This document shows positions 12,483 through 52,778 of a stretch of DNA of 52,778 nucleotides, in pieces. The DNA comes from Winogradskyella sp. (GTDB taxonomy: Bacteria; Bacteroidota; Bacteroidia; Flavobacteriales; Flavobacteriaceae), in the NCBI RefSeq assembly GCF_025210595.1, contig NZ_JAOARH010000047.1:1-52778 (forward strand), read 5' to 3'. The number at the start of each line of letters is the position of its first letter. Within the stretch, counting starts at the first letter, position 1. The position numbers and the translations under genes were made by a program. Under the pieces are notes generated by a model. That model saw nothing but the letters and a program-made list of their open reading frames with translations. It was not told where the DNA came from and did not search any database.

Positions 12483-12493
12483 GTTTTTTTATA

Positions 12494-12556
12494 GTCTTGA
12501 GTCTTGAGCCGTTAGTCGATAGAAAGAATTCTACCGACTATTGACTACTAACTATT
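12494..12556. repeat. Heptamer-periodic repeat filling the rpoB-rpoC spacer
   Basis: The spacer divides into nine consecutive 7-base units in one phase. It starts with two identical GTCTTGA units and ends with GACTATT, GACTACT and AACTATT; seven of nine begin with G. The middle also forms an inverted repeat (TAGTCGaTAG against CTAcCGACTA). The unit takes up 63 of the 76 bases between rpoC and rpoB. Confidence 0.75.
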
Positions 12557-51766: not shown

Positions 51767-52778
51767 TTAATAAGCATTTAAGACATCAATAACGGTTTGC
51801 GTTTCATTTTCCGTCATTACTGGACTGATTGGCAAACTTATAATTCTTTTATGAATTTGTTCGGTTATAGGTAATTTTAAATAAGAAAATTCTTGAAGTG
51901 CTTTTTGTTTATGTGGAGGAATTGGATAATGAATTAACCATCCTATTTTATGGTTATCTAAATAAGCTGTAAAGTTAGCCCTATCGTCTACTTCTATTAC
52001 AAAAGCATGAAAAACATGATTCTGTGAACCATCGTAAAAAGGTAAACTCAATTTAGGGTTTTTCACCTCATTTAAATAGCGCTTAGCAATATTTCGCCTT
52101 TTTGCATTATCTGAGTCTAAATGTTTTAGCTTTATACTTAAAAAAGCCGCTTGCATATCATCTAACCGACTATTATAACCTATAATTTCATTTTCATATT
52201 TTACTTTACTACCATAGTTTCTCATTAATGAAACTACTTCAAAAAGTGCTTTATCCTTAGTTGTGATAGCACCTCCATCACCAAGAGCTCCCAAGTTTTT
52301 ACTAGGATAAAAACTAAAAGCTGCTGCATCACCTAAATTTCCTGCTTTTAGCTGTTGGCTGTTGGGATTTAGTTCTTGGAATTGGGAATTTGTTACAGCT
52401 CCATGCGCTTGTGCAGCATCTTCAATTAATAATAAATTATGCTTAGCTGTAAAAGCTTTTAGTGCTTCTGCTTGTGATAACTGCCCATACAAATGCACCA
52501 TTAAAATTGCTTTAACATCTTCTGTTAATTTAGCATAAAGATTATCTATAGAAAGATTATAGGTTTTTGGATTAGGCTCCACCAACACCGGCTCTAAACC
52601 TGCATGTAAAACCGATAAAACACTGGCTATATATGTATTTGCAGGCACAATAACTTTGTCCTCTTTTTTAAGCTTACCTAATTCTATATAGCCTTTAAAA
52701 ATTAAGGTTAAAGCATCTAGACCGTTACCTGTACCAATACAATATTTTGTATCGCAATAATGCGCAAATTCAGTTTCA
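51767..52778 (-). CDS. FdtB-type sugar aminotransferase (DegT/DnrJ/EryC1/StrS), 5' end outside window
   Basis: The reading frame is open to the right edge; the visible part starts at about EFAHYCDTKYCIGTGNGLDALTL, so the ATG lies outside. A GTG at 52648 is internal and not a start. The PLP lysine is in AAAFSFYPSKNLGALGDGGAI and the family pattern AQAHGA and YNSRLDDMQAAFL is intact. The pattern fits FdtB/QdtB, which aminates the 3-keto sugar made by FdtA/QdtA. Between AHGAV and GNLGDAA lies TNSQFQELNPNSQQLKA, about 13-14 residues longer than usual in the family and matching a heptad DNA repeat (52351-52392). Confidence 0.88.
   Translation of the reverse strand, partial: ETEFAHYCDTKYCIGTGNGLDALTLIFKGYIELGKLKKEDKVIVPANTYIASVLSVLHAGLEPVLVEPNPKTYNLSIDNLYAKLTEDVKAILMVHLYGQLSQAEALKAFTAKHNLLLIEDAAQAHGAVTNSQFQELNPNSQQLKAGNLGDAAAFSFYPSKNLGALGDGGAITTKDKALFEVVSLMRNYGSKVKYENEIIGYNSRLDDMQAAFLSIKLKHLDSDNAKRRNIAKRYLNEVKNPKLSLPFYDGSQNHVFHAFVIEVDDRANFTAYLDNHKIGWLIHYPIPPHKQKALQEFSYLKLPITEQIHKRIISLPISPVMTENETQTVIDVLNAY
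52351..52392 (-). repeat. Heptad repeat array inside the aminotransferase coding sequence
   Basis: Six consecutive 7-base units, all beginning with G: GCTGTTG twice, then GGATTTA, GTTCTTG, GAATTGG and GAATTTG (plus-strand reading). Their total length of 42 bases equals 14 codons. The translation falls at a point where the family normally has a short turn. Confidence 0.75.

Follow-up and report, generated by a model that had tools for sequence, protein, structure and literature searches.

The window, i.e., the whole stretch of 52,778 nucleotides from a Winogradskyella species analyzed here, ends with a gene for a sugar aminotransferase, the 5' end of which runs past the contig edge (Table 1). 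With a match to PF01041 of 293.4 bits (gathering score 19.8), the protein belongs to the DegT/DnrJ/EryC1/StrS family. Its PDB relatives include 7n63; most similar is the 5u1z enzyme, with QdtB (3frk, E value 7e-92) at slightly greater distance. The first-pass annotation had spoken of an FdtB-type aminotransferase. Family membership and similarity to QdtB are borne out, but the protein does not qualify as an FdtB/QdtB equivalog, as all seven NCBIfam models that match it do so below the cut-off, and "FdtB-type" can only be taken as a resemblance by sequence similarity. The neighboring genes look like ones for two flippase-like membrane proteins and glycosyltransferases, a putative surface-polysaccharide context.

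Table 1 Features of the aminotransferase gene and its heptad array
Feature	Position	Strand	Basis
DegT/DnrJ/EryC1/StrS sugar aminotransferase gene, 336 codons present	51767..52777	(-)	PF01041; PDB relatives; open frame without stop
Variable turn between EDAAQAHG and AAAFSFY, 24 codons	52328..52399	(-)	13-15 codons in 45/60 Winogradskyella genes
Heptad array, six 7-base units (earlier phasing)	52351..52392	(-)	22/35 lag-7 matches; codon shuffles
Same array, AnnnCYA register, seven units	52342..52390	(-)	coding-strand reading; longer relative in L037
GCTGTTG GCTGTTG, sole identical adjacent pair	52351..52364	(-)	Tandem Repeats Finder: 52351-52365, 2.1 copies, 100%

The array lies in frame in the turn that separates AHGA from the LGDAA block (GNLGDAA), as originally described, and this turn is shorter in most relatives. 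By sequence, QdtB and the 5u1z enzyme belong to the same family, and the four PDB relatives that were aligned lack 11 residues at this position. The loop probably has no catalytic role. The letters confirm six units that all begin with G, the first two being identical (GCTGTTG, GCTGTTG, GGATTTA, GTTCTTG, GAATTGG, GAATTTG). Read on the coding (minus) strand from 52390 down to 52342, the array becomes one unit longer (AATTCCC, AATTCCA, AGAACTA, AATCCCA, ACAGCCA, ACAGCTA, AAAGCAG), every unit having A in first and C in fifth place. The units begin at codon position 2. The description of 42 bases or exactly 14 codons does not hold as an inserted length: compared with relatives having 13-15 codons, the net gain is 9-11 codons (27-33 nt). 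Likewise, the proposal that a repeat array entered the gene without breaking it stands as far as the frame is concerned, and entry is indistinguishable from growth in place.

Tandem Repeats Finder detects only the 15-base GCTGTTG doublet, and with no more than 2.1 perfect copies the array is not a strict heptanucleotide simple sequence repeat, i.e., a long perfect 7-nt run. It does qualify as a degenerate heptad array, defined by an excess of lag-7 identity over codon shuffles: identity in the loop is 0.477 as compared with 0.279 after shuffling (z 4.0). Heptad periodicity no higher than in shuffled sequence would have spoken against the proposal, but none of 500 codon shuffles scored as high. 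Within the 42 bases, 22/35 positions match at lag 7, 16/36 at lag 6, 14/34 at lag 8 and 16/28 at lag 14. The pattern (AnnnCYA)x3, which was derived from the very array it scores, has three overlapping matches in the window, all in the array (0.13 expected; 0/100 shuffles reach three). An own-genome count of (AnnnCYA)x4 was discarded as evidence, because its 34 matches at five sites compare with 28 for a reversed-pattern control.

On its own, the array is modest and unexceptional genome-wide by lag-7 score. Across 322 kb of the window genome, scores of at least 22/35 are reached at 20 places for lag 7, 24 for lag 6, 20 for lag 9 and 16 for lag 12, and scores of at least 27/42 at three places for lag 7 (the window array included), two for lag 6 and four for lag 9. 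Judged by this single array, one could suspect coincidence in a low-complexity loop rich in A and T. We give this next to no credence, given that such arrays recur in relatives and in further genes, where the remaining non-harmonic lags yield almost nothing. It is the comparative evidence that carries the case.

The window harbors two further elements of related appearance. Heptads (AGTCTTG twice, then related units; 20/28 at lag 7) are present outside open frames at 12488-12522, and a REP-like motif, CTGAAACAAGTTCAGGATGAC, occurs around 32597 within an open frame of 428 codons, where it encodes EILKQVQDD.

The variable turn in related aminotransferases

Among the Winogradskyella genes, the loop is readable in 60, and in these the turn comprises 13-15 codons in 45 cases and 17-58 in 15. 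Altogether, it is expanded to 17-58 codons in 24 of the 98 genes compared, the window gene included, which is not a frequency because L153-L162 were chosen from a family search, eight of them for their length. Expanded turns were seen in Winogradskyella, Flavobacterium and two further genera, and in 7 of the 29 named rows, L126 being one of the seven. The loop table leaves out L096, L125, L132 and L155, and contains the duplicates L086/L102 and L039/L126, the latter two being the same sequence. One of the omitted genes, L155 (genome G272), carries an in-frame CPELVSGA insert in another loop, upstream of TDSAQSHGA, that looks like another palindromic repeat. A family-wide search found the enzyme in 136 of 299 genomes at 137 places, six of which exceed 981 nt by our reading of the matches. 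The loop is expanded in four of these six (the window gene, G014, G105 and G109), whereas the loop of G133 spans 13 codons and the insert of G272 lies elsewhere.

Conserved extra residues common to the relatives would have spoken against a repeat array, but the relatives do not share any. The heptad units vary among species, and both orientations are present. In Winogradskyella, L038 has plain heptads (ACACCCA, ACACCTA, ATAACCA, ATGCCCA), L037 has AATTCCA, AAAGCCA and ATAGCTA unit types, and L095 CCAAAAG types. In the two further genera, perfect AATTCCA units are seen in G109. The arrays of L037 and the window gene have a similar unit order and align unit by unit, L037 being longer by exactly 21 nt (three units, 7 codons). 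L058, located elsewhere in the tree, has part of the same unit order. In Flavobacterium sp. 9AF and F. jejuense the loops are of the GTTAGAA type, in F. cucumis and a MAG of the AAGTTGG type with the opposite strand sense. The BAL38 and LMO8 loops, in which the KAGNLGD block is replaced, combine AGTGTTC heptads, a near-palindromic CTGAACTTGTTTCAG element that we take to be REP-like, and ACACCCA or ATACCCA heptads. Three loops (L044, L050, L053) are enlarged by 6-nt TCAAAT-type repeats, not by heptads, and that of L062 matches neither a 6- nor a 7-base period by eye.

Over 20 expanded loops, lag-7 identity amounts to 0.435, compared with 0.280 after codon shuffling (z 14.3, 0/500), with z values of 9.6 for lag 14, 4.6 for lag 6 and 3.5 for lag 8. 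When the window loop and the hexad cases are removed, ten non-redundant loops still give z 10.4 for lag 7 and 4.8 for lag 8. Of the 13 strong lag-7 clusters in 281 kb covering aminotransferase loci, 10 lie inside the loop, the window array falling just under the threshold for a strong cluster. Among the other lags from 4 to 13, only lags 6 and 12 place clusters in the loop, two each.

On a tree calculated in a quick version with the loop excised, the 24 expanded rows among 98 require 18 changes, at least seven of which are forced by well-supported branches. As labels shuffled over the tree need 21.6 changes on average, the expanded state appears only weakly clustered, and gains are indistinguishable from losses. 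Some distant rows resemble each other in unit order (L001/L058, L119/L131, L114/L116), which points to recombination or inheritance and not to independent birth. It is conceivable that recombination or gene conversion, either with arrays located elsewhere in the genome or with homologs of other species, replaces the sequence of the loops. Close pairs indeed differ across the whole loop (L116 and L130 with 95.7%, L131 and L107 with 92.5% DNA identity outside the loop), and L119 and L131 have a common composite loop, yet separate on the tree. REP-like palindromes occupy the same loops as the heptads, namely those of L119 and L131 among the 98 aminotransferases and those of five AroA genes. First-look candidates for KLEVGSW were most numerous where loops are of the AAGTTGG type (27 and 10 in the two genomes concerned, versus 1-6 in six others), but matches passing an E value of 0.01 are confined to one of the two. 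The difference of exactly 21 nt inside the arrays of the window gene and L037, on the other hand, fits gain or loss of units. We consider overwriting a possible, though rather unlikely, source of the arrays.

Heptad arrays in AroA, PrmC and between genes

EPSP synthase (AroA) and PrmC likewise contain in-frame heptad arrays at fixed loops and with clade-specific units. Tracing the places of heptads pointed to AroA of F. cheniae, which has them at four loops. In Flavobacterium, 37 lag-7 clusters were found at these four loops in 14 of 19 aroA genes, against a mean of 0.05 after codon shuffling. Lag 6 yielded two clusters, lag 8 one, lag 14 24-25 and the remaining scanned lags none. The set omits the fragment L208 as well as L209, an additional match from the LMO8 genome; L198 was missed in the first pattern scan and is included in the cluster count. 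The loops keep their positions while their units vary, the second loop containing AACTTCC, CACAACT, AACTCCC, CACCCAT and others. In five species the third loop is filled not by heptads but by the REP-like element or something close to it, namely TGTCATGCTGAACTCGTTTCAGCATCTCA in four of them and a more divergent version in F. cucumis. Heptad arrays and palindromic repeats are observed to coexist in such loops. L194 and L202 (AroA of G371 and G375) contain an additional in-frame HPLEGCPKGG or HPLEGCPKDG ahead of the TYQDHRM motif, which may be yet another repeat element. Outside Flavobacterium, the best 30 of 68 Winogradskyella AroA genes have nine lag-7 clusters in seven genes, that of the window genome included, and AroA of 20 other Bacteroidia (the best-scoring 20 of 72 genomes with a match, the window genome excluded) has four in three genes. 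These four are all in internal loops (the third loop has one and the fourth two, while another immediately precedes the YADHRM motif), and the three genomes are all outside the family of the window organism. At lags 4-13 except 7, neither the 30 Winogradskyella nor the 20 other Bacteroidia genes have a single cluster.

For PrmC, 19 lag-7 clusters were found in 20 genes, compared with none at lags 4-13 except 7. By eye, the units are of the type GTCAAAA in four genomes, CATCCAT/CACCCAT in nine, AACTTCC in three and AAGTCAG-like in one; three genomes have none. The peptides encoded in this loop are unrelated across species, as exemplified by KSKVQSQK, NSPITHHPSPI and SNFQLPASS, and arrays of one type are common to genes at 89-91% protein identity.

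These observations bear on two explanations that invoke function. If selection at the protein level favored polar loop peptides, the periodicity of the DNA could simply follow from codon choice. On visual inspection, N, S, Q, T, H and P abound in most loops, and the arrays in AroA and PrmC are mostly encoded from the A- and C-rich strand. However, a 7-base unit does not make up a whole number of codons, the lag-7 signal is lost when the same codons are shuffled, and the same PrmC loop is filled by unrelated peptides in different species, which makes such selection extremely improbable as the cause. Phase variation, in which a change in 7-nt copy number would flip a gene on or off via its frame, comes to mind because gain or loss of heptads shifts the frame unless three units are involved, and because of the putative surface-polysaccharide neighborhood. 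The window gene does not behave as a phase-variable contingency locus: a stop inside the gene was encountered in none of 61 genus matches and in none of the family matches listed, and the perfect repeat in its array spans only 15 bases. In addition, similar arrays sit in AroA and PrmC, and we count the sharing of one PrmC array type at 89-91% protein identity against a switch. Switching off either of these two enzymes would be costly. We regard phase variation as very improbable.

Single cases of heptad arrays were found in PabB, LipB and MnmE. Compared with PDB relatives, the array coincides with two gaps of 3 and 8 residues in LipB and with one of 4 in MnmE; PabB is of similar length. F. aquaticum MnmE (L297:14142-15557) contains an in-frame CCTTCGACAAGCTCAG element (DPSTSSEQAGK), located in a 7-residue insertion, together with a heptad stretch. 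In Flavobacterium sp. 9AF, a long TTGGTTG-type array is located in the gamma/tau linker of dnaX (L183:252-2050), the N- and C-terminal parts of which are in different frames joined at a run of A. The split frame was rejected as an effect of the array because the frames meet upstream of it; presumably, it reflects ordinary dnaX slippage.

A sample of 1.5 Mb without choice of genes was drawn from four genomes (that of the window, F. cheniae, F. aquaticum and Flavobacterium sp. 9AF), although for two of them it was not blind to AroA, since it comprised the whole AroA-bearing contig of F. cheniae and the first stretches of the AroA-bearing contig of F. aquaticum. Coding and non-coding DNA were distinguished by open frames without annotation (at least 120 codons in one scan, 90 in the other). 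Long open frames contain 17 lag-7 clusters (two in the window genome, four in F. cheniae, nine in F. aquaticum, two in strain 9AF). Nine of these are in AroA and one each in PrmC, PabB, LipB and MnmE, and four are of low complexity by eye. A clear coding array is absent from 400 kb of strain 9AF. Coding clusters at lags 4, 5, 8, 10, 11 and 13 number 3, 1, 3, 2, 2 and 3, and the 17 at lag 7 are not above the 14, 16, 19 and 14 at the codon-periodic lags 6, 9, 12 and 15. Outside open frames or at their edges, in under a tenth of the bases, there are 64 lag-7 clusters, as compared with 5, 11, 9, 14 and 4 at lags 5, 8, 10, 11 and 13. Coding arrays are therefore rare and confined to few places.

Long intergenic arrays in the window genome (L098 on C50, L100 on C81, L099 on C51, L097 on C43) are built from ATCACTA (two arrays), AATTCCA and ATGCCTA/ACACCCA units, and one begins at the stop codon of a putative trmD-like gene. 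In the long intergenic array L164, graded related units follow each other in one register, identity declining from 0.76 to 0.47 over lags 7 to 49; in three others identity is flat across lags. A proposed unit class, AAnnnCY (circular, one strand), accounts for 17 of 38 units (0.45 versus 0.21, 0/2000) in a set that includes the genomes suggesting the class, and for 11 of 29 heptads in held-out genomes (6.2 expected, 81/5000). It was dropped as a strict rule and is a tendency with only moderate held-out support. AATTCCA arrays were found in nine of 68 Winogradskyella genomes, one match (G022) being the loop itself. A link of such arrays elsewhere to expanded loops is not convincing, with three of the remaining eight genomes expanded versus 15/60 overall.

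Origin and significance of in-frame heptad arrays

We observe a 7-nt periodicity at the DNA level that recurs at fixed loops with lineage-specific units and orientations, is likewise seen in AroA and PrmC, and goes along with open frames. We think it likely that this represents a family-wide habit, in which heptad arrays that are mostly intergenic in Flavobacteriaceae also occur in frame in permissive loops of enzymes. Replication or repair would create units through 7-nt slippage or short duplications, and the units would then diverge by mutation and be gained or lost one by one. Selection would purge versions that break frame or fold, so that arrays would persist only at loops and with the frame kept. 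The best reading is that arrays form in, or land in, permissive loops and that selection retains those in frame. Concerning the window gene, the earlier interpretation was mostly right once the insertion length is corrected, and the wider pattern across genes is the interesting part. Differences of whole unit type between related species, such as GTCAAAA versus CATCCAT in PrmC, are not simple drift. These switches and the frequent hosting of arrays by AroA and PrmC are outside the reach of the explanation.

Related repeats are known. The available text of MacGregor 2015 (PMC4679880) describes arrays of the heptamer TAACTGA in five Bacteroidetes, mostly intergenic and in part accompanied by other heptamers, and quotes Mrazek et al. 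2007 on the abundance and slippage of heptanucleotides. According to the same source, these are likewise 7-nt direct repeats that are mainly intergenic, with slippage proposed and few copies in ORFs. There, however, one heptamer is found at many places, and coding copies lie mostly toward protein ends, whereas arrays of the type studied here involve many heptads, reside in the same internal loops of conserved enzymes and differ between related species. Among the papers listed by searches of the openly accessible full-text literature, judged by title and opening lines of the abstract, none describes housekeeping enzymes with recurrent heptad arrays in their internal loops.

A second parallel is provided by the Rickettsia palindromic elements (RPE), reportedly the subject of work by Ogata and colleagues in 2000. 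As far as the available text of PMC2229807 goes, RPE reside in frame in protein genes, and the product of a gmk gene bearing such an insert is active. The likeness consists in intergenic repeat DNA occurring in frame within conserved protein genes (PMC2229807). In the description available, RPE are palindromes of 105-146 bp and of one element kind, whereas heptad arrays are tandem, short and variable in their units. The window array is not RPE-like, as it is tandem and the palindrome motif is restricted to two of the 98 aminotransferase loops.

A more far-reaching idea, which we put forward as speculative and clearly unlikely, is that Bacteroidia possess an active, 7-nt-specific copying process, with a polymerase or repair system re-copying the last seven bases with errors, that keeps writing new heptad arrays both between genes and at certain loops of AroA, PrmC and other core enzymes. 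If this were true, loops of the AroA/PrmC type would be natural recorders of that process.

Repeats whose unit length is not divisible by three are expected to be kept out of coding sequence, yet within a single bacterial class several families carry heptad arrays time and again at set loops of conserved enzymes, with units that vary between related species. The old question of why repeats of seven bases prevail in numerous bacterial genomes now becomes testable under a filter of frame and fold. Heptad arrays account for odd, non-homologous loops in proteins of Flavobacteriaceae and caution against reading function into them.
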